Assembly: GCF_000172155.1 (NCBI RefSeq)
Contig: NZ_ABIZ01000001.1
Span: forward strand, 5,427,105-5,491,104
Direction: 5' to 3'
Source: Verrucomicrobium spinosum DSM 4136 = JCM 18804
GTDB taxonomy: Bacteria; Verrucomicrobiota; Verrucomicrobiia; Verrucomicrobiales; Verrucomicrobiaceae
DNA: 64,000 nucleotides
In this document: positions 24,801 to 55,255 of the stretch, piece by piece
Layout of the letters: each line of letters starts with the position of its first letter
Position numbering within the stretch: the first letter of the stretch is position 1
Position numbers and translations under genes: made by a program
The notes under the pieces: model-generated
The model's database searches: none
Told to the model about the DNA's origin: nothing
The model's input: only the letters and a program-made list of their open reading frames with translations

Positions 24801-27800
24801 CCACATCCACCAGCGCGGTATTGACGACAACGTCAACGCCATTGGTGTCCACGGTACCGCCTGCGTCAGCCAGCGCGATGCCACCGGTGCGGTTCAATGC
24901 CCCGGCAATCCCTGTCTGCAGACGAAGCGTGCCGCCAGCAAACACGATGGCCGCAGTGCCGGATGAGCCCCCGATGCTCTCCCAGCCGTCGATCTCCAAG
25001 ACCCCTTCGTTGAGAGTGGTGGTACCGCTGTAGGAATTGTTTCCCGTCAGGATCAAGGTCCCAATACCGGACTTGGTCAGAGCCGTGTTGCCCGCCGTGG
25101 AGTTGATCAGGTTCGAGGTGATGGTCACACCCGAAGCCGCGCTGTTCACCACATGAAAGATGAACTCATTGCCCACGTTGCCAACCGTCGGCCCCACTGT
25201 AATGTCCGAGAATCCGCTGAGCGTGATTCCCTGTGGGGAGGCCAGTTCTGCAAAGGTGGCATTGGCTGAATCCACAGCCGTGAAAAGAAACGCGCCGCTG
25301 GTCACCACCAAACTGCCTGACCCCGTGACGATCGCGGCGGCTGTCGTTGAAGAATTGTCCAAAACGAGGGAATTGATCGTCTTGCCTGCAAGCCCGGAAA
25401 GATCCGTCGAAAAAGTCTCCCTCACGTTGGAGGCGGCCCCTGCTGCGGCAAAGGCACTGTACTCAGAGGTCAGATTCAACGGCCTGAAACCAATGCCCGC
25501 AACATAAGTGACAAATGAATTCCCCCGCTGGTTGTTGACGGTAGTGGACAGCAGGTTCCATCCCAAATCCTGCCCCACCGCCCATGGCACGATGCTGATC
25601 GTGCTGGAGAGTGCCGCGCCACCTCCACCAATATGGTTGTTGGTGGTGAAGGCCGATTCCGCCGCCGTCGCCAGCCTGAAAAAGGTTCGTCCAACAACGG
25701 TGGACGACGTCCCAAGGTTCGTACCGCGAACGTTGAATGTCGCGTAGTTGTTCCGGGCGACGGACGCCACAGTAATCTGCGCCAGACTGCTGGTATTCGC
25801 GACATTGGTCGAGGCTTCCAGAGTGCTGTATGAAGAGCCCGAATCCAGGGTGACAGCCCCCACCGTTTCCGTTCGTCCGCCATTCTGATCAGTGCGTTTC
25901 CACAGGCCCCGATACGGAAGGGCGGTGCCACTCAGACCGTTGGCACTGTTCATCACGATCGCAGCGGTATCCCCCACGCGACTGGGAGCGCTCGATGAGC
26001 CGTTGTTGTCGATTAGAAGACCGCCCCCGGAATTTAACTTCCACAGCGTGGCGTTTGTCATGTTCGCGATGCCATTGCCCGTCAAGCTTACCAATCCCTG
26101 GTTCACCTCCACAGTCCCGGTGAAGCCAGTGTGCGACACTGTGTTCAGGGTGAGGTTCGTTGAACCCAGCTTCACAATGGTTCCGGCCCCGGAAAAGCGC
26201 CCACTGAAGGTTGAACCGTTGTTCAGTGTCAACGTCTGGCCATTGAGCATAACCACCCCACCGTCCGTACCGCCTCCAGTGAGGGAACCGATCGTCTCAT
26301 CGGCGAGCAGGTTCAATGTCACTCCCGTGACAGCATCGAGATTGACCACCGACGAATCGCCAATGGCATTGCCGCCGTTGACAGTGAGCGTCCCCTTGTT
26401 GACGTAGGTCGAGCCCGAATAGGAGTTCGAAGCCGAGTTGAGAATGAGCTCGCCCTCGCCCGCCTTCGTAATCGAGCTGCTACCACTGATGAGTGAGGAG
26501 ATGGTCAGTGCAGCGCTCGTGTTGAACTGGTGAATGAAAAAGGCATTACCTGCGGAAGTCAGCCTGCCTCCAGAGATGGAATTCCCCCCAGCCGAGGCTA
26601 CGCTGACAATACCGCCGCTGGTAATATCAAGCGTGTCCGTAATCTGGAAAGCAGAGCCCGCACTCTGAAAGACAAGGCTGTTAATCTTGGCCAAACTGAG
26701 CGTCGAGCCAGAGTAGCCTGAAGCATCGGTGACATTCTCATCCGTTGCCCAAGTGGACACGTCATCCTTCGCCGCCGCTGCTGCCGCCACGATGTTCCCG
26801 TTGGCGTCCACGGTGGCAAACTTGGAGCTGTTGAACGTTGCCCAGCCACCCAGAATGCCGTTTGTAACCACCCACCCAGTGGTGTTCACAGATGCATTGG
26901 CCCCGGTGATGACAACATCCAGAGACCGACCCGCCGCCGTCGAGGTCAGGGCCCCGAGCGACAAGATCATACCAGGACTGCCACTGTCGTTGACAAGAAT
27001 GCGGTTGGCTCCCTGCCCTACCGTATATCCCGCCGCCGATTGGGTTACCGCATTGGAGGCATTGCCGACCAGTTCCAAGGTGCCTCCATTCATCGCGAGC
27101 GCTCCGGCGCTGGCGATTTTCGATGCCGTATTGGAGCGGTAATCGAGCTTGAGCACCCCTTCCGAAACAGTAGTGGTCCCCGAGTATGAATTGGTGCCAG
27201 ACAGCACCAGCGTCCCGTTGCGCGTTTTGGTGATGCCTGGTGAGCCCGTGCCATTGATGATGCTCGCGCTGACGACCAACTCCTCATCCGTGCCATCTGA
27301 GGGTCTCACATCAAAGGTCCTGGTCGTGCCATTCAGGCTCAACGAGCCCGTACCCTCGATGGTAGCCGTGCCTGTAACACCGCTGTTCGCAGCATAGACC
27401 ACCAACCCCGTGAGATTATAGACCACTCCCGCTCCATCAAGTTTCAGCGTGGCCTCGCTGCCAGCCACGGCGGTGTTCGAGAATACCAGAGAGTTGGTCG
27501 AGGTCTGCCCACCCATGCTGGCCCTGAGTTCCAGGGTGCCGTTATTGAGTCGAAGCTCGTTGGTAAACGTCGGAGTCGTCAGCACAATCACCGACCCGGC
27601 CCCATCCAGCCGGAAGGCACTGGATTGGGTCGTGCCGTTTGCGATGACACCACTGATGGTGGCGGTGGATCCGGCCGCGACGTTGAAAATCATCGTCCGG
27701 GCTGAAGTGGTGCTCTCGGTGAGGGTAATGTTGTTAAAGAAGACACCCCCGGTGTTGGTGATGGTGATGGTACGGTCAGCCAGGGCCTGCCCAAAGGTGT

Positions 27801-29769
27801 TGCTGAATGTGATAACACCTGTGCCAGCCAGAGTCAGATTCGCCGCGAGCGGGGTGAGACTGCTGATGGTAAGATCCCCCCCTCCGACATTGGAGATAGT
27901 GGAGGACGCGCTGAGCGTGATGGTCCCGCTATACGCACTGGCCGTGGTGCCGATGTACTGGAGACTGCCTCCGCCCAGAGTCACCGCATTGCCGCCGGTG
28001 CCCCCCAAATTCTCATTTTGGGAGAACTGCAGGATTCCCGCAGATACGGTCAAGGCTCCTTCGAAGGTATTGACCCCACGCAGTTCCAGCGTACCCGCAC
28101 CGGTCTTCGTGAGCGCTGAAGCTCCGGTGCCGCTCAGCACACCGGAAAGCACGGCCTTGTCAGCCGTAGAGGAAGTATTGTCCAGCACCTGGACGGTGCG
28201 AACAGCGCCGTTCAAGTCAATGCTGTTCACAAGCTCTACAACATTGTCCGATCCCGTGGAGCCAAACAACAGCTGTCCGGTGCCATTCACAAACTCGGTG
28301 TTTGCATCCCAGACCAGCTGCAATCCACTGCTCAACGTAACGGTAAGCTGCCCCCCGTTGGCAGAAAAGCCCCCGTGGGTCCCCACCCCCCAGCGGACCT
28401 GTCCATTCCCTGAACCAATATCGACATTGAGAGCTCCGCTTCTCTCATACACACCGCCATTTAGGATCAAATTGCCCGTGCCCACATTGCCGCGAATGGC
28501 TCCGGCGCTGATGGTCGTCAATCCACCGTAGGTGTTGGTTCCAGACAGGACCAAGATTCCTGCCCCCAACTTGGTAAGTGTACCCGTCCCAGAAATGTCC
28601 CCTGCGAAGGTTGAGAGGTTGGAACGGTTAAACTCCAAAGCCGCATTGTTGAGGATGTTCCCCAGAAGGGAACCAGTCGTCCCTCCCGAGCCCACTCTGA
28701 TCGCGCCAGCGTTGATGGTCGTGCCACCTGTGTAGGTGTTGTCACCACTCAAGATGAGCATCCGGGCACCCTCTTTAACGATTCCACCATTCTCGATGAT
28801 GGTTTCGATCGTCGCGTCTGTATCAACCGCATTCGATCCCGTGGAGGTTGTCGCCACCGTAATGGTGCGAACACCACCGCCCAGATCCAGATACCCGGTA
28901 TTCGGCGCGGCGGTGCCGTCAGTCCCAGTGCCAGTAATCAGAATGTCACGAGCACTATTCCCCGTAGTCGCACTGCGGTTGTTGTTGAAATTGATGTTGC
29001 CGTTGACGATCAACCTGCCTCCAGTCCCCGTCAGGACCTGCGCACCAGCCCCGGTGACCGTGGTGAGGGTCAGCCCACCAATCGTTTCGGTGAACCCGTT
29101 GAGCTGAAAGTTGCTGTAGTTGGAGGTGCTGGTGCTGTTTACGGAAACCGTCGCCGTATCGGCAAGCTGTTCGTCGGCCCTCAGAATGGTGGTGACAACC
29201 CCACTCGTAGAATTGATGACCAAGTTGCCCGCGATGGCATTCACGCCCGCAGATTTTGCCAGTTCCAGAGTGCCCGCCGAGACTGTAAAGTCCGCTGACA
29301 GGGTGTTGGCGGTTGAGCCCGCCAGTCGAAGCGTCCCCGTGCTGGTTTTGGCCACCGCGACAGAACCGGACAGCACGGAGTTGATGATGGCAGTCCGGCT
29401 GGCAGCAACAGAGATATTTCCTGCGGTGGTCCAGTTCAAGGTGCCACCGTCCAAGGTCACAGCCCCATCCTCAAACGTCAGGCCTGCGATGCTATGCGTC
29501 CCTGCAACAGTCACGGTGTAGGTCCCCGTGGCATCGGTTCCAGCAGAGAAGAAAGCTGCATTTCCCGCCGCCCAGGCAGCCACCGCACCTGTTCCCGCGC
29601 TGCTGGTGTTCCACCGGGCGGTCGCCGCATCCCATGTGCCTGAGGGCGAGGTGCCACCTGCACCGGTCGTCGTCCCATTTGTATCCCAATACACGTTGGC
29701 GCTGAAGCCCTTCGGTGCCGCAAGCACCATCACCAGCCACGACGCTATAACGGAAAACTTGTGAAACAT
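21817..29769 (-). CDS. giant secreted beta-strand-repeat (PATR) protein with PEP-CTERM anchor
   Basis: A protein of about 2650 residues from the ATG at 29769, chosen for the signal peptide MFHKFSVIASWLVMVLAA; the frame extends to 29832. Most of the length is Gly/Thr/Ser/Asn-rich with few Cys or charged residues. It contains about eleven recognisable copies of the autotransporter-associated strand repeat, roughly TKTGxGTLxLSGxNTYSG followed by TTVxxGVL. Such repeats form long right-handed beta-helices. The C-terminus has no autotransporter barrel. Instead it ends with VPEPG, a hydrophobic helix and an RRRRR tail, the PEP-CTERM sorting signal handled by exosortase. It is probably an extracellular adhesin or matrix protein. 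It stands alone, between the methyltransferase and the CvfB-like gene. Confidence 0.9.
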   Translation of the reverse strand: MFHKFSVIASWLVMVLAAPKGFSANVYWDTNGTTTGAGGTSPSGTWDAATARWNTSSAGTGAVAAWAAGNAAFFSAGTDATGTYTVTVAGTHSIAGLTFEDGAVTLDGGTLNWTTAGNISVAASRTAIINSVLSGSVAVAKTSTGTLRLAGSTANTLSADFTVSAGTLELAKSAGVNAIAGNLVINSTSGVVTTILRADEQLADTATVSVNSTSTSNYSNFQLNGFTETIGGLTLTTVTGAGAQVLTGTGGRLIVNGNINFNNNRSATTGNSARDILITGTGTDGTAAPNTGYLDLGGGVRTITVATTSTGSNAVDTDATIETIIENGGIVKEGARMLILSGDNTYTGGTTINAGAIRVGSGGTTGSLLGNILNNAALEFNRSNLSTFAGDISGTGTLTKLGAGILVLSGTNTYGGLTTISAGAIRGNVGTGNLILNGGVYERSGALNVDIGSGNGQVRWGVGTHGGFSANGGQLTVTLSSGLQLVWDANTEFVNGTGQLLFGSTGSDNVVELVNSIDLNGAVRTVQVLDNTSSTADKAVLSGVLSGTGASALTKTGAGTLELRGVNTFEGALTVSAGILQFSQNENLGGTGGNAVTLGGGSLQYIGTTASAYSGTITLSASSTISNVGGGDLTISSLTPLAANLTLAGTGVITFSNTFGQALADRTITITNTGGVFFNNITLTESTTSARTMIFNVAAGSTATISGVIANGTTQSSAFRLDGAGSVIVLTTPTFTNELRLNNGTLELRASMGGQTSTNSLVFSNTAVAGSEATLKLDGAGVVYNLTGLVVYAANSGVTGTATIEGTGSLSLNGTTRTFDVRPSDGTDEELVVSASIINGTGSPGITKTRNGTLVLSGTNSYSGTTTVSEGVLKLDYRSNTASKIASAGALAMNGGTLELVGNASNAVTQSAAGYTVGQGANRILVNDSGSPGMILSLGALTSTAAGRSLDVVITGANASVNTTGWVVTNGILGGWATFNSSKFATVDANGNIVAAAAAAKDDVSTWATDENVTDASGYSGSTLSLAKINSLVFQSAGSAFQITDTLDITSGGIVSVASAGGNSISGGRLTSAGNAFFIHQFNTSAALTISSLISGSSSITKAGEGELILNSASNSYSGSTYVNKGTLTVNGGNAIGDSSVVNLDAVTGVTLNLLADETIGSLTGGGTDGGVVMLNGQTLTLNNGSTFSGRFSGAGTIVKLGSTNLTLNTVSHTGFTGTVEVNQGLVSLTGNGIANMTNATLWKLNSGGGLLIDNNGSSSAPSRVGDTAAIVMNSANGLSGTALPYRGLWKRTDQNGGRTETVGAVTLDSGSSYSTLEASTNVANTSSLAQITVASVARNNYATFNVRGTNLGTSSTVVGRTFFRLATAAESAFTTNNHIGGGGAALSSTISIVPWAVGQDLGWNLLSTTVNNQRGNSFVTYVAGIGFRPLNLTSEYSAFAAAGAASNVRETFSTDLSGLAGKTINSLVLDNSSTTAAAIVTGSGSLVVTSGAFLFTAVDSANATFAELASPQGITLSGFSDITVGPTVGNVGNEFIFHVVNSAASGVTITSNLINSTAGNTALTKSGIGTLILTGNNSYSGTTTLNEGVLEIDGWESIGGSSGTAAIVFAGGTLRLQTGIAGALNRTGGIALADAGGTVDTNGVDVVVNTALVDVAGMNGGLTKKGLGTLTLGAASSYTGATTVLEGVLRGAVNQAIGTGDLVVSGGSLDLQTLSANVRRVTLSGTSAQILGSGVLTSDGSVFDLQSGTVEMNLTGTSKVVKTTAGLVTVTGVSSHTGDTLISEGVLRFTSANGFSTSSMLELNGGILEGNGSFSRTIGMGAGQFIMTGGTSGFSAYGGTLTVSLGTASWGTFGFNPSALVLNAATADGLLNWATNLNLNGAVRTVNVQATTARLSGVVADGSGAGGLTKTGTGTLEFDSVNTYTGVTNINAGVLKFNVNQSLSGALQFGSANNITTSGKLDLSAASAQFSSMVVQTNSDANTNELMIGAGQKLVINGAVAIGSNAAAATTTLFKASGDGEFEVNNTASGSLFQVGGVNTGSGQANRAVADFGDLAKMTVTLNSTNGVFRVNPSNSNNVSNRWSTLTLAKETEITAATLAVGDGGVHSGLAGQVNTVILGSVKNEFYVNAINIGTGNRDMGAIRFDAADTTGTLRVRGTTGDTSRAAFSMASAGGGTGAGGDGNLFDVRGHSVDLLFGTTIIGTQNRLNAYTNYFAFDTGRLQMTSLTLSGRTGGSTTTGASQSRNVTSTMDIGGGVVIIDNGILSLASVAGSYDASLNPAPVVTGIVNISGGEVTVGQTSNNSVVMGANTATSTGNTPQSVAHINITGGKVTMSGNIVRGNTSGAGLNAGAVSVTVTLDGGELDMSGRSIGASTAMINFVLNSGTLRNLGQFNGGATVLDKNGSGLLKVGGLVNANGGININGGSVELLTGSNLGGGNVAVNNSAVLAGNGNVWTTTLNSGSIRPGEISGNQIGKLVFENGLIVKAGPTATPNSVVMQIRGATGIADLSQYSVAELAENAGHLVFETTGDHDHINVVGELTWEAGTGGTQTTKIVVEDLGVSYSYGMVFNLFDWSGMLPAEFLLPTGPYAGGAGYDLVLPDLGDSGFLWDVSLFKEYGAVVVVPEPGRMMLFAVGLCALVMRRRRRWI

Positions 29770-29992
29770 GGGGATCAGAAAACTAGAGGTGCCTGAGGAG
29801 CCTCCGGGTTGAGGATTTCCCTTTTTTGGCAAAGTCTGCCAAAAACATGACCGGATGTGAATAAAATCCTCACTCTAGGAGTGACTTTGTACATCCTAGC
29901 CTCTAAGCCTATCCTTTAGACCCCCTCCCTGCCATTTCTCCCTATTTGCACTTTTTGTTCCCCCGGAATGCTGTGGTGCACTATGGTTCACC

Positions 29993-38218: not shown

Positions 38219-39334
38219 TCAAGGCCCCTTCAAAGGGCGAATCGACGCCCCGTCCACCCATGCTGGAGGAATCAAGATTTGTCGGGGCACCTCCGGCACG
38301 CCCCGCTCATGATGGAGCAACTGGGTGGCCACCAGGTCCACTGCTGCACTGGCCACGTGCTCCCGCCGCTGATGAATGCCCGCCATCCCACTCATGGCGT
38401 CCGTCCAGTCATGCACCACAAGGCCAATATCCTCCGGCACCCTGAGCCCCAGCTTCTTTAACCACCCGGGCACATGGGTGTCGAAGCTGATGATCGCGTC
38501 AGGGCGGTGGGTGTTTACCCAACTGGAGAATATCTCTCCGCACTTGCGCAGGTCGTTGTGAGGAAACAACAGCAGGGGCACCCGGTTCTTCTTGGGCACT
38601 CCCTCCTGGTAGTGGAGCATGGCCCCGCTATAGGCACTTTCCGCCCTCTTGTCCACCCACTGCGTGATGGCCAGGCCGATGCGCTTGTAGCCCCGGGCGT
38701 TGAGTTCATCCGTCGCCCGATGAATTCCCAGCGTCATGTTCCCAGCAGACCGATGCAGGGATGGCTCCCGAAGCCCATACCCGAATGTCGCAGCGGAGAA
38801 CCGGGAGAAGTCGAACTGCGCACATTTCATTTGGGATGACTGCGGAGAAATGATGATCCCCTCGATGCCGCGAGCCTGCAGGATATCCGCCAGCCGCCCC
38901 GGCGTCATGCCATCCCGTCCCAGCCAAAACTCCTCTGCATGGTAGCCATGCTGCTCGGCCCGTTTCTGGATGTCCTTGATCGACACATACTGATAGGCCG
39001 GGTCGTGCAGTTCATCCTGGGGGAGCGACTCCCGGATCACGGCAATCACCGCTCGCACTTTCGAGTCTTTCCGTCCCCGCACGAGGTGCATCATCCGCGT
39101 GAGATGCGCATCCGGCTGGTAGTTCAACTGCCGCGCCACCTCCATCACCGTCTCCCGGGTCTTCATGGAGACCTTGGGCGAATTGTGCAGCACACGCGAG
39201 ACCGTCATCGCCGACACCCCAGCAGCGCGGGCCACATCCTGCAAACTCACCTTCGGTGGTGCATCACCATCCCCTGTCGCAGTGACCACTGCGACAGGAG
39301 TTGAACTTGGAACTGGGGTCCCTCGACTTGGCAT
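38219..39334 (-). CDS. LacI-family transcriptional regulator
   Basis: A 371-residue regulator. A 27-residue Pro/Thr/Val-rich extension precedes the LacI helix-turn-helix (VSLQDVARAAGVSAMTVSRV, 29-48) and the hinge helix. A periplasmic-binding-like effector domain follows, with ARGIEGIIISPQ and GLVVHDWTDAMSGMAGIHQR. It probably represses sugar-use genes until an effector binds. The immediate surroundings are hrpA and a gene-free repeat block, so its target must lie elsewhere. An alternative start a few codons inside is possible. Confidence 0.88.
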   Translation of the reverse strand: MPSRGTPVPSSTPVAVVTATGDGDAPPKVSLQDVARAAGVSAMTVSRVLHNSPKVSMKTRETVMEVARQLNYQPDAHLTRMMHLVRGRKDSKVRAVIAVIRESLPQDELHDPAYQYVSIKDIQKRAEQHGYHAEEFWLGRDGMTPGRLADILQARGIEGIIISPQSSQMKCAQFDFSRFSAATFGYGLREPSLHRSAGNMTLGIHRATDELNARGYKRIGLAITQWVDKRAESAYSGAMLHYQEGVPKKNRVPLLLFPHNDLRKCGEIFSSWVNTHRPDAIISFDTHVPGWLKKLGLRVPEDIGLVVHDWTDAMSGMAGIHQRREHVASAAVDLVATQLLHHERGVPEVPRQILIPPAWVDGASIRPLKGP

Positions 39335-39490
39335 GAACGAAAAGCAGCCTTGAATGTTACGATAACCTGGGGGCAGAAGTCACTACGTCGCCCAGGTCAA
39401 AACCCTTTCCTGACGACGAGGCAAGGGCGCGCAAATCATCTGCCAGAAAGAACGGAGAAAACTCACCAGAGAGGTGGACCGACCCTGACC

Positions 39491-41004: not shown

Positions 41005-41010
41005 TTAACT

Positions 41011-41123
41011 CTGGCAACGATCTACTTTCACATGGCCTGTCGCCATACTATCATCGACGCTGAGGTGTTTCACTTCCGTGTTCGGGATGGGAACGGGTGG
41101 GGCCACCTCGCTGTGGTCACCAG
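41011..41123 (-). rRNA. rrf: 5S ribosomal RNA
   Basis: About 113 nt. On the minus strand it starts CTGGTGACCACAGCGAGGTG, carries the conserved CCCATCCCGAACACGG loop and GAAGTGAAAC, and closes with a CGTTGCCAG 3' arm. Ends are set by the terminal helix and are good to a few bases. Confidence 0.92.
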
Positions 41124-41287
41124 ACTTCTGTTTCGGTTGAGAGCTTCAAGCTCCATGTGAAACAGCCTGTCTGAAGACTTCAGCGCTTCAGCGGTTGCAG
41201 TTATAGGTTGGGCTGGCGGCCCTGCCGGAGCTGGGTTCCCTGAAAACTGAACAAGGACAAATTAAGAGTGGTTGAAAAAGAATCAAA
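41124..41287 (-). other. 23S-5S spacer with half of the 23S processing stem
   Basis: No gene. Bases 41238-41281 are complementary to 44180-44218 on the other side of 23S (CCCTGAAAACTG, ACAAG, TTAAGAG and GAAAAAGA blocks). The two would pair to form the long RNase III processing stem around the 23S precursor. Confidence 0.75.
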
Positions 41288-44137
<2,850 letters not shown>

Positions 44138-44207
44138 CTGTAGCCGCTGGCTTGCGCCAGCTTCAAATAAAAATTTATCTCTTTTTCGCTCTTAATCTGT
44201 CTTGTCC

Positions 44208-44220
44208 AGTTTTCAAAGAA
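44208..44220 (-). promoter_or_regulatory. boxA-like antitermination element before 23S
   Basis: On the minus strand TTCTTTGAAAACT lies between tRNA-Ile and 23S, the usual place for an Nus-dependent boxA. It also takes part in the 23S flanking stem. Confidence 0.5.
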
Positions 44221-44271
44221 CCTTCCGGTTCGAAAGCATTAATCAATTCTACACACCCATTGGTCACCAGA

Positions 44272-44348
44272 TGGTGGGCCTGAATGGACTCGAACCATTG
44301 ACCCCCGCCTTATCAAGGCGGTGCTCTAACCAACTGAGCTACAGGCCC
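44272..44348 (-). tRNA. tRNA-Ile (GAT)
   Basis: A full cloverleaf in reverse complement: acceptor GGGCCTG with CAGGCCC, T-loop GGTTCGAGTCC, anticodon loop TTGATAA with GAT, and an encoded CCA end. It is the second tRNA in the 16S-23S spacer. Confidence 0.97.
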
Positions 44349-44392
44349 GGTTTTCACCGGTCCCCTGCTTTAAAAGCACTCAGCAAGTCACA

Positions 44393-44468
44393 TGGTGGAG
44401 GCATGGGGACTCGAACCCCAGACATCCAGCTTGCAAAGCTGGCGCTCTACCAGCTGAGCTATACCCCC
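44393..44468 (-). tRNA. tRNA-Ala (TGC)
   Basis: A full cloverleaf in reverse complement: acceptor GGGGGTA with TGCCTCC, anticodon loop TTTGCAA with TGC, T-loop GGTTCGAGTCC, and an encoded CCA. It lies immediately after 16S and before tRNA-Ile. Confidence 0.97.
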
Positions 44469-44633
44469 TTTGGTGATGCGTGTGTATTGTCCCAAGCAAA
44501 AGCTAAGTCGTGCACTACACGTGAGGTAACTCACGCAAATATTTGAGCCTTTTAGCAGACCAGGTGTTCCGGCGAACCGGGCACTCTGGTCTCGACCTAT
44601 CCAGTAAGCCGTGAGGGCTCCTGGAATACTCCA

Positions 44634-46177
<1,544 letters not shown>

Positions 46178-46440
46178 TGTCCATCCATCTCTGAATGAAC
46201 GGTCCAATGCAAAGCATTGAACTAAATTGACTGGTTGTTTGTTATGACAACCACGCGCTGTTTCTCACACACGCGTAGTACACAACTTAGCTTTTTCTTG
46301 GTTCAAACTAAACTCACAACCCTTGCGGGCCGTTTAGTCTGATTAATGCTGCCAAAGATCGTATTCTGATTCTCGAAGAATGCCGCAGTTGCCTGCGTCG
46401 CTCTTTTTGTCTCAGCCGCTCGTTTTCGGTGCGGGTGTTG
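46178..46440 (-). other. rRNA operon leader
   Basis: A transcribed leader of about 265 bp between the predicted promoter and 16S. It has no gene; the frame at 46314-46583 on the minus strand runs through the promoter and is not credible. Confidence 0.6.
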
Positions 46441-46468
46441 ATACTACCCCACATCCTCTTTTCGTCAA
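46441..46468 (-). promoter_or_regulatory. candidate rRNA operon promoter
   Basis: On the minus strand TTGACG (46463-46468), a 16-bp spacer, then TAGTAT (46441-46446). An A/T-rich stretch (46480-46500) lies just upstream, like an UP element. It is the best sigma70-type match before 16S. Confidence 0.65.
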
Positions 46469-46583
46469 CAAGTTGAGGCTCTTTTTTTGAAGATTTTTGC
46501 CAGTTTCGACATGCGGCCTTCATCGACTTAACAAACTCATGGAGACGAAAAATCAGAGCCCGCTCAACGGGCCCTAGTGCCAT

Positions 46584-46896
46584 GCGGGAGAGGCCGTTTC
46601 ATTTATCAAGGCTGGTGAAGCATAAGCGGATTCTGGGGCCAAAATTTGAAACGCAAAACCTCTGAGAAAAGTTGTCCGAAGAGATGCAACGACCTCAAAC
46701 GGAGGTTCCTCAGGGGTGGTTGGAGGGGTCAATCGCGGTCAGAAAGTGGCAAAACGATGTTCGGCGCGTCGCTCCGCTCCCAAAAATTGGCCACCCCCAC
46801 CCGCCTTGAGTCCCGGTGTTAGCATAACACAGGCGTTTGATTGCCTCTCGGACCGGTCCAGTGCCTCATTGGACCCATTCAACACTTCCTCACCGC
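46584..46896. other. intergenic region between the divergent rRNA operon and sialidase-like gene
   Basis: About 310 bp. I see no gene, RNA or strong repeat. It must hold the promoter of the plus-strand operon beginning at 46897. Confidence 0.5.
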
Positions 46897-49707
46897 ATGA
46901 AAACACTGCCCCTCTTCTGCGCTGGCTCTCTGTCCCTGTGCCTGCTCCCCTCTCTTCACGCCGCCGCAGCGGAGACGGCCCCCGCTCCTTCTCAGGTGCC
47001 AGCCTCCGTACTCGATCTGGCGATGCAGCCATCGGAACTGATCACCAATCCCGGTCCCAAATATTCTGCTGAGCAGCGCGACTACGCGATGGTGATCGGG
47101 ATGGACCGCACGCCGAAGGGTCGCATCTGGTCGGCCTGGGTGGCTGGAGGAGACAGTGATCTCGGCTATTTCGTGCTGGCGTCCAGTGACGACGATGGCG
47201 CGACCTGGTCCAAGCCCCGTCTGGTGATCGATCCCCCGGAAGCTCCCACCGGCCTGCGCAAACGCATCCTGGTGGGCAATCTCTGGACGGACCCAACTGG
47301 CAAGCTCTGGCTCTTCTATGATCAGTCCATGGGCTACTACGATGGCCGAGCCGGCGTGTGGGCCATCACCTGCGAAAACCCGGACGCGGAGAATCCCACT
47401 TGGTCTGAGCCCCGTCGCATCTGGCACGGACTCACGCTGAACAAGCCGATTGTATTGAAGAATGGCGAGTGGCTGCTGCCTATCTCTCTGTGGACACGCG
47501 ACCGTATCGGCCCTGCCGAACTGCGGGATGGCTTCAAGGAACTGGATGAGTTCCGGATGGCAAACATCTTCGTCTCCACCGATCAGGGCAAAACCTGGAA
47601 TCGTCGCGGCGGCGTGGCCGTGCCCGAGACGGACTTCGACGAGCACATGTTCGTGGAACTCAAGGACGGCCGTCTCTGGCTGATGGCACGCACCAAATAT
47701 GGCATTGCCGAGAGCTTCTCCTCCGACCAGGGCCGCACCTGGACCGCAGCACAGCCTTCAACCATCCAGAATGTCAGCTCGCGATTCTTCTTCCGCCGGC
47801 TCGCCTCGGGAAATTTGCTGCTGGTCAAGAACGGACCGCTGAATGAGCGACTCAAGGGCCGCAGCCACATGACGGCCTACCTTTCCGACGATGAGGGCAA
47901 AAGCTGGAAAGGTGGCTTGATCATCGATGAACGCGGTGGTGTCTCCTATCCCGATGGCTTCCAAGCCCCCGATGGCACCATTTACATCACCCACGATCAC
48001 AACCGGGACGAAGACCGTGAGATCCTCTTTGCGAAGTTCAAAGAGGAAGATGTGCTGGCAGGCAAGTTCACCGTGCCCGGCTCTGCCGGCATGCTGATGG
48101 TGAGCAAGGCTCTAGGTAAAAACATCGGCGAGATCACCTACAACGGCATCCAGCTCGACAGCGAGTGGCCGCCCCGCACCCAGGATCCGAAATCGACGGA
48201 GCCCATGGCGGTGCCCTATCTGACGAATCCGCCCGCGGTGATCCCCATCAATTTCGGACGCCAGCTCTTTGTGGACGACTTCCTCATTGAGCAGACCGAT
48301 CTTAAGCGCACCTACCATGCGGCCGAGAAGTACTCGGGCAACCCCGTCTTCAAAGCCGAAACTCCTGAAGAGAACAAGCCCTCCACCATCGGAGAGACCG
48401 GTCAGGAGGCCGTCTGCTACCTGGGACACGGCGGCGTTTTCTTCGACCCCAAGGAAAAGCACTTCAAGATGTTCTACACCGCCGGATGGCGGGGCGGGCT
48501 GGCTCAGGCCACAAGCCAGGATCTGCTGCATTGGGACCGTCCCAATCTCGGTCTGGTGGGCGGCAATGTGATCCTGCCGGGAGGCAAGCAATGGGCCGGA
48601 GGTGACAACTCAGTGTGGCTGGACTTGAGCTCCAAGCTGCCCGAGGAACGCTACAAGCTGCTGACGGACCGCCAGCCGCATACCATCCACACCTCCCCGG
48701 ACGGCCGCATCTGGTCGCAAGGCATCCCAACGGGCAAAGCCGGCGACTACTGCTCCTTCTTCTACAATCCCTTCCGCAAGAAGTGGGTGTACAGCATCAA
48801 GCAGGGTGGCCCACGTGGGCGCAGTCGCTACTACGCGGAGACCAGTGACTTCCTCAAAGGAGCGGACTGGAAGAACTCTGTGTACTGGACGAATGCTGAC
48901 CAACTGGACCCAGAGGATCCTGAGATCGGCGAAGCCCCCCAGCTCTACAGCCTCAATGCCGTAGCCTACGAAAGCTTGATGCTGGGTGAGTTCTACATCC
49001 TCCAAGGCCCCAACAATGAGATCTGCGACAAGGGCAAGTTTCCGAAGGTCACCCAGGTGATGCTGGGATTCAGCCGCGACGGCTTCCACTGGCACCGCCC
49101 GGAGCGCAGGCCCTTCATCGCCGCCACTAAAAAAGAAGGTGACTGGGACCGTGCTTACATCCACGGCACTACCGGCGTGATGGTGGTGAAGGATGACCGC
49201 CTCTACTTCCCATACACCGGGTACTCCGGCATCGCTCCCAGCGGCACCCGCGGCATGTACACCGGGGCCAGCATCGGTCTCGCCACCCTGCGTCGGGACG
49301 GTTTTGCCTCCATGGGGGCCGGTGCCACGACCGGCACGCTGACCACCCGCCCGGTGGCATTCAATGGCGCTCACCTCTTCGTGAATGTGAATGCCCCTCA
49401 GGGCAGCCTTAAAGCCGAAGTCCTGAACGAGGCGGGCAAGGTGATCGAGCCCTATACTGTCGGCAATTGCGAAGCGATAAAGGCAGACAGCACCCGCACC
49501 AGGGTGCAGTGGAAGGGCACAGCCGATCTGGAGAGCGTGCGCGGGAAGGCAGTGCGCCTGCGCTTCCATCTCACCAACGGTCAGCTCTACTCGTTCTGGA
49601 CAACCTCGCACCTCAGCGGTGCCAGCGGAGGCTACATCGGCTCTGGCGGCCCTGGATTCCCAGGAGTGGTGGATACAGTGGGCGACGGCTCACAGGCGGC
49701 AAAATGA
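46897..49707 (+). CDS. secreted sialidase-like double beta-propeller glycoside hydrolase
   Basis: A 936-residue exported protein from the ATG at 46897, which gives signal peptide MKTLPLFCAGSLSLCLLPSL. The N-terminal half (about 40-430) is a sialidase-type six-bladed propeller with four Asp boxes (SDDDGATW at 97-104, then STDQGKTW, SSDQGRTW and SDDEGKSW). The C-terminal half (from about 465, FGRQLFVDDFLIEQ) looks like a second five-bladed, GH32/43-like propeller with a small beta-sandwich at the end. It may release a sugar or sugar acid outside the cell; true sialidase activity is not shown, since the arginine triad cannot be assigned by eye. It is the first gene of a tight four-gene plus-strand unit with a carrier, kinase and aldolase. 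Confidence 0.8.
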   Translation: MKTLPLFCAGSLSLCLLPSLHAAAAETAPAPSQVPASVLDLAMQPSELITNPGPKYSAEQRDYAMVIGMDRTPKGRIWSAWVAGGDSDLGYFVLASSDDDGATWSKPRLVIDPPEAPTGLRKRILVGNLWTDPTGKLWLFYDQSMGYYDGRAGVWAITCENPDAENPTWSEPRRIWHGLTLNKPIVLKNGEWLLPISLWTRDRIGPAELRDGFKELDEFRMANIFVSTDQGKTWNRRGGVAVPETDFDEHMFVELKDGRLWLMARTKYGIAESFSSDQGRTWTAAQPSTIQNVSSRFFFRRLASGNLLLVKNGPLNERLKGRSHMTAYLSDDEGKSWKGGLIIDERGGVSYPDGFQAPDGTIYITHDHNRDEDREILFAKFKEEDVLAGKFTVPGSAGMLMVSKALGKNIGEITYNGIQLDSEWPPRTQDPKSTEPMAVPYLTNPPAVIPINFGRQLFVDDFLIEQTDLKRTYHAAEKYSGNPVFKAETPEENKPSTIGETGQEAVCYLGHGGVFFDPKEKHFKMFYTAGWRGGLAQATSQDLLHWDRPNLGLVGGNVILPGGKQWAGGDNSVWLDLSSKLPEERYKLLTDRQPHTIHTSPDGRIWSQGIPTGKAGDYCSFFYNPFRKKWVYSIKQGGPRGRSRYYAETSDFLKGADWKNSVYWTNADQLDPEDPEIGEAPQLYSLNAVAYESLMLGEFYILQGPNNEICDKGKFPKVTQVMLGFSRDGFHWHRPERRPFIAATKKEGDWDRAYIHGTTGVMVVKDDRLYFPYTGYSGIAPSGTRGMYTGASIGLATLRRDGFASMGAGATTGTLTTRPVAFNGAHLFVNVNAPQGSLKAEVLNEAGKVIEPYTVGNCEAIKADSTRTRVQWKGTADLESVRGKAVRLRFHLTNGQLYSFWTTSHLSGASGGYIGSGGPGFPGVVDTVGDGSQAAK

Positions 49708-49742
49708 AGTTTCCTTAAACCTACACACTCTCTTTCACCGTC

Positions 49743-50750
49743 ATGTTTCGCTTCATCAACTGGTTCACCAGCTTGTACCCGGTCTGGGTCATCTCCTTCG
49801 CCGTGGTCGGCCTGCTTCACCCCACCTCACTCTCCTGGTTCACCGGAGGGTGGGTCGTATGGGCCCTCACCCTTGTGATGCTGGGGATGGGCTTCACGTT
49901 GACGGTGGATGACTTCCGCCGCCTGCTTCGCGCCCCGTCCTCCCTGGCACTCGGGTTCCTCACTCACTATACCATCATGCCTCTGGCAGGATGGTTCGTG
50001 GCGCATGCATTGAACCTCGAACCCGGCTTCGCGGTGGGGCTCATCCTGGTGGCCAGCTGCCCGTCCGGCACGGCATCCAATGTGATCTGCTACCTGGCGC
50101 GGGCCAATGTCGCCCTCGCCGTGCTGGTGACGCTGACCTCCACGTTGCTCGCCTTCGTGATGACCCCGGCCTGGTGCAAGGCACTGGCGGGTCAATACGT
50201 GCCGGTGGACGCCGCCAAACTGAGCCTCTCCACCATTCAGATCGCGGTGGCCCCGGTGCTGGCGGGCGTATTCTGCAACTGGCTTTTCCCCAAGGCCACC
50301 GCCTCCGTCTCACGGGTGGGACCGCTGGTCTCTGTGCTCGCCCTCATGTTCGTGACGGGCGGCATCGTGGCGCAGAACGCAGCCGCAGTGAAGGCCAACG
50401 CCGGCAAACTGGCCCTCGCTGCCGTCCTGCTGCACGTGCTGGGCTTCGGCGTCGGCTACCTTGTCGCCAAGATCCTTCGCCGGCCTGAGGAAATAGCCCG
50501 CACCATCTCGATCGAAGTCGGCATGCAAAACGGCGGCCTGGCCGCCGTGCTGGCCAAGCAGAACTTCCCCATGCAACCGCTGGCCGCAGTCCCCGCCATC
50601 TTCAGCGCCATCACGCAAACCCTGCTCGGCAGCCTGCTCGCCACCTGGTGGCGCATGCACCCCGTCGCCTCCTCAAACCCCGCGGCGACGGCCAGCACGC
50701 CAGCCCCGCAGCCCGCTACACCAGCCATTCCTGAGGCCCGCCCGGAATGA
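49743..50750 (+). CDS. bile acid:sodium symporter (BASS) family transporter
   Basis: A 335-residue polytopic inner-membrane protein with about ten hydrophobic helices. The family signature CPSGTASNVICYLARANVA (106-124) is clear, as is the later EVGMQNGGLAAVLA motif. BASS carriers bring in organic acids such as bile acids, pantoate or keto acids with sodium. The C-terminal 25 residues are Pro/Ala-rich and not conserved in the family. It starts 35 bp after the sialidase-like gene, and its stop overlaps the kinase start by 4 bp (ATGA), so it is probably the uptake step of this operon. Confidence 0.92.
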   Translation: MFRFINWFTSLYPVWVISFAVVGLLHPTSLSWFTGGWVVWALTLVMLGMGFTLTVDDFRRLLRAPSSLALGFLTHYTIMPLAGWFVAHALNLEPGFAVGLILVASCPSGTASNVICYLARANVALAVLVTLTSTLLAFVMTPAWCKALAGQYVPVDAAKLSLSTIQIAVAPVLAGVFCNWLFPKATASVSRVGPLVSVLALMFVTGGIVAQNAAAVKANAGKLALAAVLLHVLGFGVGYLVAKILRRPEEIARTISIEVGMQNGGLAAVLAKQNFPMQPLAAVPAIFSAITQTLLGSLLATWWRMHPVASSNPAATASTPAPQPATPAIPEARPE

Positions 50751-51892
50751 ACGCCACCACCATCACCTCTTCAGCCCCTCCCGCGAACGCTGCGGATCTG
50801 GTATCCCCTTCCCATCGTCGCACCACCTACTACTGGAAATGCGATCGACCCGCCGCCTTCCACGGCACGACGGGGCGTACGGATGCGGGCACCCTGCAAA
50901 GTGCGCTGAAACAAGCTCTCCAGGAGAAGTTCCCCTCAGCACGCCTTTCCCTTGAACCGGGTCACGGTCAGGGCAATCACATCACCTTCATCGCGACCGT
51001 GGATGAGGCCCGTCGATTCGTCCGCGTGGAAGATGGACCCGAGAAGGACAACTATCTCATCGTGGAATCCCGCGTGCTGCATGAAGTGCGCACACTCGGC
51101 CTGCCTGCACCGCGGGTCCATGCCGTGGATGCCAGCCGGGAAAGCGTGCCTTTTGCCTGGCAGATGCTCGACCTCGTGGATGCCCCGGACCTGAATCATT
51201 TCCAAAAGAAGGGCGAACTCGATCTTCCCAGAATGGCCGGGGAGATCGGTGCCGCCATTGCCCGCTGGCAGTGTGCAGAGCCGGCGGGATACGGCCCCTT
51301 TGACCCCGCCCAGGTCATGGAAACGAATACGCTCTGCGGCTTTCACGCCAGCTACGAGGACTACTTCTTCCTCCATTTCGAGAGACACCTTCGTTATCTG
51401 ACTCATCAACAACTGCTCTCCTCGCGCGAGGCGGCAGAGATCGAATCAGAAGTGCTGCTCCACCGTCCCCTGCTCGCCCTCAACCAAGGTTGCCTGGTTC
51501 ACAAAGATCTGGCGCTCTGGAACATTCTGGGCACGCCAGAAGGCGTTGCCGCATTCATCGACTGGGACGATGCCATTTCAGGAGATGCCATGGACGACCT
51601 CTCCCTGCTGGCGTGCTTTCACGACGGCCCTGTTCTCGCCCGGGCATTGGAAGGTTACCAGATGCTCCGCCCGCTGCCCACAGAGCACCGCCGTCGTTTC
51701 TGGCTCCATCTCCTGCGCAACATGATCGTCAAGGCCGTGATCCGGGTAGGAGCAGGTTATTTTGAGAAGTCCGATGGTTTTTTCCTCATTGGCAGCGGAA
51801 GCAGCGGCCAGAACCTGCAAACATTCACCACCCAGCGCATCGCCTCGGCACTGCAGGGGCTGCGCGGCGACCTGCCCGTAGCATCGCTTTGA
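50747..51892 (+). CDS. aminoglycoside phosphotransferase-fold small-molecule kinase
   Basis: A 381-residue kinase of the APH/choline-kinase-like superfamily. The Brenner motif reads VHKDLALWNI with His252, Asp254 and Asn259, and the metal site is IDWDDA with Asp272. The N-terminal 30 residues are low-complexity. It should phosphorylate a small metabolite in the cytoplasm. Its position between an importer and an aldolase suggests it phosphorylates the imported acid or a product of it; an antibiotic-resistance role is unlikely. It is translationally coupled to the carrier gene. Confidence 0.85.
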   Translation: MNATTITSSAPPANAADLVSPSHRRTTYYWKCDRPAAFHGTTGRTDAGTLQSALKQALQEKFPSARLSLEPGHGQGNHITFIATVDEARRFVRVEDGPEKDNYLIVESRVLHEVRTLGLPAPRVHAVDASRESVPFAWQMLDLVDAPDLNHFQKKGELDLPRMAGEIGAAIARWQCAEPAGYGPFDPAQVMETNTLCGFHASYEDYFFLHFERHLRYLTHQQLLSSREAAEIESEVLLHRPLLALNQGCLVHKDLALWNILGTPEGVAAFIDWDDAISGDAMDDLSLLACFHDGPVLARALEGYQMLRPLPTEHRRRFWLHLLRNMIVKAVIRVGAGYFEKSDGFFLIGSGSSGQNLQTFTTQRIASALQGLRGDLPVASL

Positions 51893-51918
51893 ATTGTGAC
51901 ACCCTGAACCTTTCCTCC

Positions 51919-52659
51919 ATGTCATCCTACCTTCCCCCTGTGGACATCCAGCTGGGCACCTTCCTCTCCCTTGGTTCACCCCTCATCGCGGAACTGGCCG
52001 CCGAATGCGGCTTCCAGTGGCTCCTGCTCGATCTTGAGCACGGTGCCAGCACAGACGCAAGCTTGCTGCCTCAGCTGATGGCCACCAAGGGCACCGCCAC
52101 CCGGACCATTGTCCGCTTTGGCACCCCTCATGCCGACCAGGTGTTGCGCGCCCTCGACTGGGGCGCTCATGGCATCATGATTCCGCGGGTCTCCTCCGCC
52201 GCAGAGGCCGCCGCCTGTGTCAAAGCCGCCTCATATGCCCCCCGGGGGCACCGGGGATTCTCACGCTCTGCCAGAGCATACGGCCTGGGGCTGCGACCAC
52301 CCGCTTCTGCCGGGGCCATCCCGCAGCCGCTGATCATGGCGCAGATTGAGAACATTGAGGGCGTGGCCCACGCCAGTGAAATCGCCGCCGTGGAGGGGGT
52401 CGATGTCCTCTTCGTCGGTCCGGCCGATCTACAGTTTGACCTTGGGGCCCGCCCTGATCTGGCAGCGCTCAGCTATGAGGAGTGCCTGGTTTCCGTGGCC
52501 AGTGCCGCCCAAACCGCGGGGAAGGCCTGCGGCATTCTCTTGCGTGACGCCACCGAGATCCCGAAGTTTCGAGATCTCGGCTACACCTATCTGGCATTGG
52601 ATTCCGACGTGGCCCTGCTTCGCAAAGGCTTCCTGGCGCTCGCAAACGCCAGGGCCTGA
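51919..52659 (+). CDS. HpcH/HpaI-family class II aldolase
   Basis: A 246-residue TIM-barrel aldolase from the ATG at 51919; an upstream TTG at 51889 would overlap the kinase stop. It cleaves 2-keto-3-deoxy acids to pyruvate and an aldehyde with a divalent metal. Hallmarks are LLLDLEHG with catalytic His41, IMIPRVSSAAEA, metal ligand Glu144 in QIENIEG, and Asp170 in GPADL. Relatives act on 4-hydroxy-2-oxoheptanedioate, 2-keto-3-deoxyrhamnonate and 2-keto-3-deoxyglucarate. Which one applies here is not clear, but as the last gene of the operon it probably finishes the pathway. Confidence 0.9.
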   Translation: MSSYLPPVDIQLGTFLSLGSPLIAELAAECGFQWLLLDLEHGASTDASLLPQLMATKGTATRTIVRFGTPHADQVLRALDWGAHGIMIPRVSSAAEAAACVKAASYAPRGHRGFSRSARAYGLGLRPPASAGAIPQPLIMAQIENIEGVAHASEIAAVEGVDVLFVGPADLQFDLGARPDLAALSYEECLVSVASAAQTAGKACGILLRDATEIPKFRDLGYTYLALDSDVALLRKGFLALANARA

Positions 52660-52672
52660 ACTTCGCAGCCTG

Positions 52673-53896
52673 TCACTTAAAAGTGGCCGGTTGCCCCGTG
52701 GATTCCAGCACCGAGTGCCAGAGCTCGCGCGTGGGGTCCACCTTGCGGCGCCCCCCCGTCACCAGATCCAGCGGCAGGTGGACGAAGGCTCCGTGCCAGC
52801 ATCCCACCAGCATGCCCGTCTTACCCGCCATCGCTGCGTGCACCGCCCCTTGGGCGAGACGTGAGCAATACACGTTGTCCTGCGCATTGGCAGGAACACT
52901 GCGGACGATATAGCTGGGATCGATGTACTTGAGATTCACCTCCATGCGCCGACTTTTGAAGAAATCGTTGATCGTGTCTTTCAGATACAGCCCGATGTCA
53001 GCATACCGCTGGTTTCCGCTGGCGTCCGTCGCACCGACATCCCGGTTCATGAGATTCTGGCCAGCCCCTTCGGCCACTACGATGACAGCGCTACCGCGCT
53101 TTACCAACCGGTAGCGGAGCATCTCCAGCAGCCCCTTGGGGCCATCCAGTTCAAAGGGAACCTCAGGGATGAGTACAAAGTCCACGTTACTGCCAGCCAA
53201 AGCAGCGAAGCACGCAATGAAGCCTGAGTCCCGGCCCATCAGTTTCACCAAACCCACCCCATTCACAGCCCCTGTCGATTCCGTATAGGCACATTTCACG
53301 GCCTGCACTGCCTCGGCAAATGCCGTATCAAACCCGAAGCTCTTGTCCAGGTACATGATGTCATTGTCGATCGTCTTGGGAATGCCCACCACCGCCTTTT
53401 TCAGCCCGCGACGCTCGATTTCCTGAGCAATTGCCGACGCTCCCCGCAGGCTGCCGTCTCCGCCAATCACATAGAGGATGTCCACCTTCATGTCTTCGAG
53501 CGTGTCCACCATGTCCCCGATGTTCTGGTGACCACGGGAACTGCCCAACATGGTGCCGCCGAAATTGTGGATCTGCTCCACCGACTGCGGACGCAGAATG
53601 AGAGGCGTGTGCCCGTAACGTTGTACCAGCCCCTCATACCCGTAGCGGAAGCCGTAGATCTTGGTGACGCCGTACTGGTTGTGCGACTGTAGCACGATGC
53701 CACGAATGATGTCGTTCAACCCTGGACACAGTCCCCCGCAGGTGACGATTCCAACAGTCGTCTTCGGCGGATCAAAGAAGATGTGCTCGCGAGGACCAGC
53801 CTCCTCAAAACTGTAGGGCATGGCCCCCGGCTCATGATCCGAAGTCCGGTTGTTGAAGTAAATTCGATGTTCGTCCGTTTTGAAGGGAGCCTCCAT
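52673..53896 (-). CDS. pfkA: ATP-dependent 6-phosphofructokinase, Lys124-type
   Basis: Phosphorylates fructose 6-phosphate in glycolysis. It has 407 residues from the ATG at 53896; an upstream ATG at 53962 is possible. Motifs are GGLCPGLND at 54-62, GGDGS at 145-149 and PKTIDND at 173-179. Gly148 corresponds to E. coli Gly104 (ATP use), while Lys174 corresponds to position 124, which is Gly in E. coli and Lys in the pyrophosphate enzymes and in trypanosome and plant-like ATP enzymes. This places it in the long ATP-dependent subgroup, which is often regulated differently from E. coli PfkA. It converges with the aldolase gene 13 bp away. Confidence 0.9.
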   Translation of the reverse strand: MEAPFKTDEHRIYFNNRTSDHEPGAMPYSFEEAGPREHIFFDPPKTTVGIVTCGGLCPGLNDIIRGIVLQSHNQYGVTKIYGFRYGYEGLVQRYGHTPLILRPQSVEQIHNFGGTMLGSSRGHQNIGDMVDTLEDMKVDILYVIGGDGSLRGASAIAQEIERRGLKKAVVGIPKTIDNDIMYLDKSFGFDTAFAEAVQAVKCAYTESTGAVNGVGLVKLMGRDSGFIACFAALAGSNVDFVLIPEVPFELDGPKGLLEMLRYRLVKRGSAVIVVAEGAGQNLMNRDVGATDASGNQRYADIGLYLKDTINDFFKSRRMEVNLKYIDPSYIVRSVPANAQDNVYCSRLAQGAVHAAMAGKTGMLVGCWHGAFVHLPLDLVTGGRRKVDPTRELWHSVLESTGQPATFK

Positions 53897-54614: not shown

Positions 54615-54845
54615 ATGAAAACCGTTGTCTCAAGCAAAGGCCAGATTGTGTTGCCCGTCGAGCTGCGGGAGCAGGACAAAGTGGTCGCTGGCCAGAAATT
54701 TGAGATCGAACGGCTGGAGTCGGGACAATACCTCCTGAAACGTCAGGCCGCGCCCGACAACGAAGGCTTGATTGACTGGCTGCTCTCCTGTCCTGAGAAA
54801 GACTGGTTTCAACCCATCCAATCCGAGTCCACTGACACGCTGTGA
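54615..54845 (+). CDS. AbrB/MazE-type antitoxin
   Basis: A 76-residue protein starting MKTVVSSKGQIVLPVELRE, the swapped-hairpin AbrB/MazE DNA-binding fold (SSKGQIVLP). The C-terminal 30 residues (EGLIDWLLSCPEKDWF) are the kind of flexible segment that wraps the toxin. It would repress its own promoter and neutralise the PIN toxin. Its stop overlaps the toxin start by 4 bp (GTGA). Confidence 0.9.
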   Translation: MKTVVSSKGQIVLPVELREQDKVVAGQKFEIERLESGQYLLKRQAAPDNEGLIDWLLSCPEKDWFQPIQSESTDTL

Positions 54846-55255
54846 ACTACTTGGTGGATGCCAATATATTGAGTGAGGCGACCAAACCAGCGCCGGACCC
54901 ACAAGTGGTCGCCTGGCTCCGCAGCCACGAGTCGCAGCTGGTGGTTAGCCCCATCATTTTGGGTGAGCTCGAATATGGCATTCTCACCCTGCCCAAAGGC
55001 CAACGCAGAACGCGGCTGGAAAAATGGTTCGCGCAGGGAGTGCGCCGCATTCAATCTCTGGACGTCGATGCCGACACCGCCTCCCATTGGGCGAACCTGC
55101 TGGCGAGCTTGAAAAGAAACGGCCACGCCATGCCCGTCAAAGACAGCCTCATTGCCGCCACGGCTCTCGCTCATGGACTCACCGTGGCGACTCGCAATGC
55201 CAAAGACTTCCGGTTCGCCGGTGTCAAGGTGGTCAACCCCTTTGGCAAAGGCTGA
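54842..55255 (+). CDS. vapC: PIN-domain ribonuclease toxin (VapC family)
   Basis: A 137-residue PIN nuclease with a GTG start at 54842. The acidic metal-binding residues are in place: Asp6 in YLVDANILSE, Glu42 in GELEYG, Asp101 in VKDSLIA, and Asp122 in ATRNAKDF. When free of antitoxin, VapC toxins cut tRNAs or rRNA and slow growth. It is translationally coupled to the MazE/AbrB-type antitoxin, a known pairing for VapBC. All catalytic residues are present, so it is probably active. Confidence 0.93.
   Translation: MNYLVDANILSEATKPAPDPQVVAWLRSHESQLVVSPIILGELEYGILTLPKGQRRTRLEKWFAQGVRRIQSLDVDADTASHWANLLASLKRNGHAMPVKDSLIAATALAHGLTVATRNAKDFRFAGVKVVNPFGKG

Follow-up and report, generated by a model that had tools for sequence, protein, structure and literature searches.

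Within a 64,000-nucleotide stretch of the Verrucomicrobium spinosum DSM 4136 genome (contig NZ_ABIZ01000001.1, positions 5,427,105 to 5,491,104; hereafter the window), we analysed a cluster of four genes encoding a sialidase-like protein, a BASS carrier, an APH-fold kinase and a pyruvate aldolase, together with a LacI-family gene proposed to control them. The cluster is laid out as follows:

46897–49707, plus strand: sialidase-like protein of 936 amino acids counted from the ATG, with an N-terminal BNR_2 sialidase-like propeller at about residues 39–410 and a C-terminal domain at about 430–936 (Pfam, PDB profiles, AlphaFold and Foldseek)
49743–50750, plus strand: BASS (SBF) carrier, PanS-like but under the equivalog cut-off
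50747–51892, plus strand: APH-fold small-molecule kinase with a YYWKCD N-terminal signature and HKDLALWN and IDWDD motifs
51889–52659, plus strand: HpcH/HpaI class II pyruvate aldolase, starting at TTG 51889 or ATG 51919

A first-pass annotation of this DNA had reported four co-oriented genes and named their families, and both points held: each product matches its Pfam family (BNR_2, SBF, APH and HpcH_HpaI) above the curated cut-off, and successive gaps are 35 bp, –4 bp and, depending on the aldolase start, 26 bp (ATG 51919) or –4 bp (TTG 51889). One relative (L054) starts its aldolase near the position of ATG 51919, and 43 of 73 kinase-aldolase gene pairs in relatives' loci overlap by four bases. 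The next gene downstream, for a phosphofructokinase, is convergent and separated by 13 bases, so the operon probably ends there. A consensus scan of positions 46176–53000 returned no plus-strand sigma-70-like site. From the gaps, the synteny and the single upstream operator described below, the four genes are predicted to form one operon, which we consider likely.

Protein families encoded by the cluster

The N-terminal half of the first protein is well supported as a propeller, with a BNR_2 match (E 4e-34, 118.6 bits against a cut-off of 31.4), an AlphaFold model whose pLDDT is mostly above 85, and similarity to GH33 sialidases both by profile (4bbw, E 6e-19) and by fold (Foldseek E 4e-14 to 3e-10 among the 50 matches shown). 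We take the RIP motif, the arginine triad and the Glu and Tyr residues to have their usual roles in sialidases. On that footing, the equivalents of the Tyr nucleophile and its Glu partner (Y351 and E249, aligned with those of 4bbw and others) and of two triad arginines (R265 and R322) are invariant in 29 of 29 sequences. The column of the first triad arginine holds Met in 23 sequences, Gly in five and a gap in one, and the RIP-motif arginine of 9db6 aligns with Met, in a local alignment that is weak (4.8 bits). As one triad arginine is replaced, the first protein has a sialidase fold but is not a standard or proven sialidase, and a sialidase in the literal sense is not supported. The "double propeller" of the first-pass annotation is upheld for the N-terminal half and not for the C-terminal half, which has no Pfam match, weakly resembles GH32, GH43 and GH130 proteins by profile (E 1e-4 to 0.4), and is modelled with pLDDT below 70 for the most part and above 75 mainly at about residues 811–900, leaving a propeller fold unconfirmed there. 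A hydrophobic N terminus can be read from the sequence, and the protein is presumably secreted.

These features bear on whether the cluster serves ordinary sialic acid (Neu5Ac) use by unusual enzymes. The homology of the N domain to GH33 sialidases, with four of the expected active-site residues kept, would fit such a role, but the first triad arginine is lost, none of the four genes is of NanA or NanK type (NanK was not searched for genome-wide), and NanE was not found in the genome (0/1, with 8 of 14 control genomes positive). Five DHDPS-family genes lie in the genome and none in the window; NanA and DapA types were not sorted among them. The canonical sialic acid route is unlikely given that NanE was not found, and we regard Neu5Ac use as very unlikely.

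The carrier matches SBF (E 3e-39, 135 bits against a cut-off of 24) and stops short of the NCBIfam PanS equivalog (226 against 400 bits); inward, sodium-coupled transport is predicted.

The kinase matches APH (E 6e-19, 69 bits against 23), and its motif residues H252, D254, N259 and D272 are invariant in 17 of 17 sequences. Its model (pLDDT 86) is closest in fold to the hygromycin B kinase APH(4)-Ia (Z 23.1, rmsd 3.7, 285 aligned residues, 17–18% identity), followed by fructosamine-3-kinase, homoserine kinase and 5-methylthioribose kinase at Z 21–22, with maltokinase also among its neighbours. With neighbours this mixed, the fold names no substrate, and fold searches cannot exclude families outside the matches listed. 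The NCBIfam cut-off for APH(4)-Ia is far from reached (21.4 against 725 bits).

The aldolase matches HpcH_HpaI (E 3e-32, 112 bits against 25), and all 23 sequences compared have H51, R76, Q152, E154 and D180, residues that we take to bind metal or act in catalysis in HpaI and GarL. Its first PDB profile match is 2-dehydro-3-deoxygalactarate aldolase (E 1e-63), but the GarL, HpaI and 2-keto-3-deoxy-L-rhamnonate (KDR) aldolase equivalogs are not reached (147 against 393, 143 against 368.8 and 96 against 441 bits); no NCBIfam cut-off is reached by any of the four proteins. A paralogous HpcH/HpaI aldolase, 50% identical, is encoded near 204 kb of the same genome (L052:8127-10161), with a DUF1501-like gene before it and a GntR-like gene after it, both judged from translation.

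Conservation and variation of the cluster in relatives

Synteny was counted in the best 80 of 142 relatives from a kinase-alignment scan of species genomes. The counts come from a six-frame profile search, because codon-scored gene calling overlooked the kinase in 10 of 98 loci; calling by longest open reading frame (ORF) had been dropped in favour of codon scoring because of long antisense ORFs in G+C-rich DNA. Within 1.5 kb of the kinase and on its strand, 72 of the 80 loci have the aldolase and 58 have the BASS carrier; within 8 kb, 51 have the sialidase-like N-propeller domain and 33 have the C domain. Since loci were picked by kinase similarity and many are related, these counts are not independent. 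The control neighbours were found within 8 kb far less often: phosphofructokinase in three of 80 loci, and the downstream FMN-dependent hydroxyacid oxidase gene (55152) in two, for which reason the oxidase was dropped as a pathway step. Among the 41 loci with 8 kb of sequence on both sides, the aldolase was present in 36, the carrier in 29, either propeller domain in 34, and all three in 24. Kinase and aldolase distance matrices correlate at r 0.86, a value equalled in none of 2000 permutations (71 loci; uncorrected for the species tree).

The gene order is thus not peculiar to this strain and recurs in distant relatives, with kinase identity to the window copy as low as 28% (alignment A1). 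By record title, which may be wrong for metagenome bins, the loci span several phyla and come from Verrucomicrobiota and related groups, Planctomycetes, Larkinella, Spirosoma, a Cytophagaceae and a Prolixibacteraceae; among named organisms, Verrucomicrobium sp. BvORR034 and BvORR106 have the most similar kinases (92% and 82% identity). A search at E 1e-10 found the kinase in 19 of 387 Verrucomicrobiota genomes, with one match each, and the aldolase accompanied it in 17 of these 19 loci, one of the two exceptions stopping at a contig edge.

This coupling bears on the view that the kinase is a detoxifying, resistance-type phosphotransferase outside catabolism that is linked to its neighbours by chance. 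Its nearest solved relative is indeed a hygromycin B 4-O-kinase (profile E 9e-10; Z 23), but the low identity and score reported above, the aldolase coupling and the shared operator make this explanation extremely unlikely.

The cluster varies among relatives, and its variants bear on function. Five loci with Bacteroidota titles (three Larkinella, a Cytophagaceae bin and a Spirosoma bin) have TonB-receptor and SusD genes ahead of the propellers, an SusC/SusD-type assignment made by running Pfam on one member of each family. In the distant loci L044, L047, L048 and L049, a gene for a BNR_2-like protein lies 29, 15, 15 and 3 bases after a regulator gene of one family, which Pfam assigns to GntR-FCD in L044 and L047, and the kinase gene comes next; the aldolase gene then follows in L044 (split over two frames), L047 and L049, and the L048 sequence stops at the kinase. 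As the BNR_2-like protein of these four loci lacks a hydrophobic N terminus, the propeller seems to work intracellularly there. FCD-type regulator genes accompany some clusters, and organic acids are common ligands of FCD regulators. A sodium:solute symporter family gene adjoins the aldolase in L049 and L050. In eight loci (L075, L080, L083, L088, L106, L109, L110 and L119), the cluster is followed in the same order by genes for Com_YlbF, DUF4886, FAD_oxidored and polysaccharide pyruvyl transferase family proteins, assigned by Pfam from one member per family.

Other neighbours touch on the substrate. Near the L092 cluster lie a KDPG aldolase gene and KDG-kinase-like genes, and a KDG-kinase-like gene is also found near the L099 cluster, a weak sign of sugar-acid metabolism; unscanned members of the latter family occur in L088 and L106, and a GH130 gene adjoins the kinase in L061. 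These neighbours would suit a module for a lyase- or uronate-derived, KDG-like acid in place of a nonulosonic or octulosonic one, in which the propellers would be uronate-acting hydrolases or lyases. The loci concerned are few, however, and in them another kinase-aldolase pair, unrelated to the first, would only duplicate the handling of one compound; we judge this reading unlikely.

The LacI gene and its candidate operator

Upstream of the cluster, the window contains the following features:

38219–39334, minus strand: LacI-family regulator gene (Pfam LacI, 1.3e-20), proposed for the operon
39355–39367, no strand assigned: operator-like palindrome TGTTACGATAACC, with one mismatch, 20 bp ahead of the lacI start
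46817–46829, no strand assigned: operator palindrome TGTTAGCATAACA, exact, 67 bp ahead of the operon ATG
41009–46175, minus strand: rRNA operon (5S-23S-tRNA-Ala/tRNA-Ile-16S), between lacI and the operon and not part of the pathway

The rRNA operon thus parts lacI from the operon that LacI probably controls. The BvORR034 contig (L053) breaks off some 160 bases ahead of the operator, as though a repeat lay there.

Nine loci encode LacI orthologues (60–69% identity) on the other strand from the cluster, either directly adjacent to it (L034, L087 and L108) or one or two genes away (L075, L083, L088, L106, L110 and L119); the LacI-like protein of L041 is only 28% identical. No common operator was found upstream of lacI among even-length palindromes. 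The motif TGTTANNNTAACA, which has an odd centre, was noticed in raw upstream sequences and tested afterwards. Allowing one mismatch, it occurs in two places in the window, ahead of the operon and ahead of lacI, compared with a mean of 0.27 places in shuffled windows, two of 100 of which reach two.

We then scanned 95 loci of relatives (1.41 Mb, two duplicate contigs excluded). All 20 exact copies, from 18 loci, fall between –200 and +250 bases relative to the point where a cluster gene or lacI is called to start, as do 34 of 41 copies with at most one mismatch, from 29 loci; the motif had been picked after some loci were viewed, so that the choice was not blind, and most of the 95 had not been viewed. 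A reversed-pattern control gave no exact copy, and placed five of 25 copies with at most one mismatch at such starts.

The genome itself, a single contig of 8,220,857 bases, contains two exact copies, one before the operon and the other 2.9 Mb away, 58 bases before the ATG of a 391-amino-acid BNR_2 protein with a hydrophobic N terminus. This number is close to what base composition predicts (about two, by our own estimate), and the evidence for the sites is therefore their position and not their number. With at most one mismatch there are 18 places, against 95 for the reversed control, and four fit a regulon: the operon, lacI, the 391-amino-acid protein, and a stand-alone paralogue of the C domain (561 amino acids), whose gene has a one-mismatch copy 57 bases ahead. 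The 391-amino-acid protein is 71–77% identical to the product of the operon's first gene in L035, L036, L039 and L060, and 74–82% identical to a domain that forms one protein with the N propeller in L070, L102, L108, L115, L122, L127, L128 and L132.

Exact sites were present in seven of 11 relatives' genomes searched, and in none of G066, G254, G010 and G101. Away from the cluster they precede genes for the same BNR_2 protein (G217), a LamG and BNR_2-family protein (G199) and a protein related to a different BNR_2 family (G234), and the BNR_2-type families of the G199 and G234 targets are also found near the cluster in other loci. G259 has five places, none at the cluster: one precedes a gene whose product weakly resembles BNR proteins (24–33% identity), another two fall within ORFs, and the other two have no explanation. 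We propose that the LacI protein of 38219–39334 regulates the operon through TGTTANNNTAACA, a prediction drawn from these site positions, and presumably does so as a repressor.

Elsewhere in the window, translation suggests a small AbrB/SpoVT-like ORF with a VapC-like PIN-domain ORF (137 amino acids, GTG 54842) after it, at about 54615–55255, likely a toxin-antitoxin pair, and a 2671-amino-acid autotransporter-repeat-like protein with a PEP-CTERM-like tail at its end (21817–29832, minus strand).

A candidate sugar-acid pathway and its relation to known systems

Overall, we put a probability of about one half on the following reading: the cluster is a catabolic module under LacI control, its substrate is a carboxylated sugar acid, probably of the 2-oxo-3-deoxy (ulosonic) type, and the kinase acts before the aldolase. 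Propellers presumed to be secreted, from the operon's first gene and the two unlinked regulon members, would release the acid from a glycan; the BASS carrier would import it, probably with sodium; the kinase would phosphorylate one of its hydroxyls; and the aldolase would cleave the phosphorylated acid to pyruvate and a phosphorylated aldehyde or sugar phosphate, feeding central metabolism. We infer both the substrate class and the order of the two enzymes. The release, import, phosphorylation and cleavage steps had been suggested in the first-pass annotation, and what now underlies them is a conserved, likely operon of fitting families, to which LacI and its operator have been added. The same source had allowed an acidic sugar or an aromatic acid; the aromatic option is the weaker, given the glycan-type propellers in the regulon, the loci with SusC/SusD genes, and the KDG-kinase-like and KDPG aldolase genes near two clusters. 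A pyruvate aldolase requires a 4-hydroxy-2-oxo acid, and the four own-genome operator targets include no dehydratase, dehydrogenase or isomerase, which together suggest that a ready-made ulosonic-type acid is imported.

The same module could also run with the aldolase first, splitting the free acid to pyruvate and an aldose on which the kinase would then act, as NanA precedes NanK. Sugar-acting kinases among the fold neighbours (fructosamine-3-kinase, 5-methylthioribose kinase and maltokinase) and an Aldose_epim gene directly ahead of the kinase in L128 are in keeping with this order, and the kinase-then-aldolase gene order is uninformative; we consider it possible though doubtful. Whichever enzyme comes first, it seems to us quite likely that a kinase and a pyruvate aldolase under LacI control serve the use of a sugar acid.

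Returning to the kinase-first module, several observations weigh against it. To our knowledge, no HpcH/HpaI aldolase requires prior phosphorylation of its substrate. With its first triad arginine missing, the propeller may not bind an ulosonic acid. Among the 41 loci with full flanks, the aldolase is missing from five, the carrier from 12 and both propeller domains from seven. In L071 (2399-11235), a close kinase relative without an aldolase lies between peptide-type ABC-transporter-like genes, a Beta_elim_lyase (threonine-aldolase-like) protein gene and a DUF2817 protein gene, possibly a second use of the same kinase family. One-mismatch sites also occur about 190 bp before a GlpD-like dehydrogenase gene, twice between SDR-like and TetR genes, and, at 5151705–5151717 (L154), 43 bases ahead of a gene whose translation is fructosamine-kinase-like (APH-fold), so that the regulon is not certain to be a closed parts list. 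The remaining places lie inside ORFs or by no clear gene in several cases, and near NUDIX-like or autotransporter-repeat-like genes in others. We take the 14 places outside the proposed regulon as chance or, for the TetR pair, as sites of that regulator; the site at the fructosamine-kinase-like gene is probably chance.

As to the acid itself, an ulosonic acid such as Kdo would suit a kinase-first route: for Kdo, phosphorylation and cleavage to pyruvate and arabinose 5-phosphate would reverse Kdo-8-phosphate synthesis with unrelated enzymes, once a divergent hydrolase of the sialidase fold, its carboxylate pocket rebuilt, had set the acid free. Kdo is available from lipopolysaccharide, plant rhamnogalacturonan II and algal scales. 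We hold this specific route to be fairly unlikely.

If the proposal is correct, a catabolic module common to Verrucomicrobiota, Planctomycetota and Bacteroidota gains a candidate regulator with a precise operator, and kinases otherwise read as aminoglycoside-type phosphotransferases gain a physiological role. The operator provides a short parts list for one genome and brings what these uncharacterised BNR propellers feed on within reach of a few direct enzyme and growth assays. The enzyme families are known, and their combination, regulon and spread appear undescribed: no description of the gene set was found in open-licence literature (titles and starts of abstracts), in line with the earlier remark that no standard pathway is known to combine exactly these genes.

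The closest parallels are partial. If the kinase acts first, the module resembles the lower half of the Entner-Doudoroff/KDG route, in which a 2-oxo-3-deoxy acid is phosphorylated and split to pyruvate and a phosphorylated aldehyde, but that route uses a PfkB kinase (KdgK) and a KDPG/KHG-family aldolase, whereas the module pairs an APH-fold kinase with an HpcH/HpaI aldolase and adds propellers and a BASS carrier. A route reported from Luteolibacter (PMC12632266) has a PPi-using KDG kinase with KDPG aldolase and likewise differs. The Nan pathway (sialidase, NanT, NanA, NanK and NanE) shares the logic of release, import, kinase and pyruvate aldolase, as well as a GH33-related propeller, but the module differs in having no NanE found, a lost first triad arginine, other aldolase and kinase families and a BASS carrier. 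With the GarL (2-dehydro-3-deoxygalactarate/glucarate) and 2-keto-3-deoxy-L-rhamnonate aldolase routes it has the aldolase family and catalytic residues in common, at scores well below their equivalog cut-offs (147 against 393 bits for GarL); those routes involve dehydratases and no kinase ahead of the aldolase. The TonB-receptor and SusD arrangement of the five Bacteroidota-titled loci is similar to that of glycan-use loci. Finally, the ketopantoate/pantoate transporter PanS belongs to the same BASS family as the carrier, and although the latter scores 226 bits against an equivalog cut-off of 400, a 2-oxo acid cargo would fit it.

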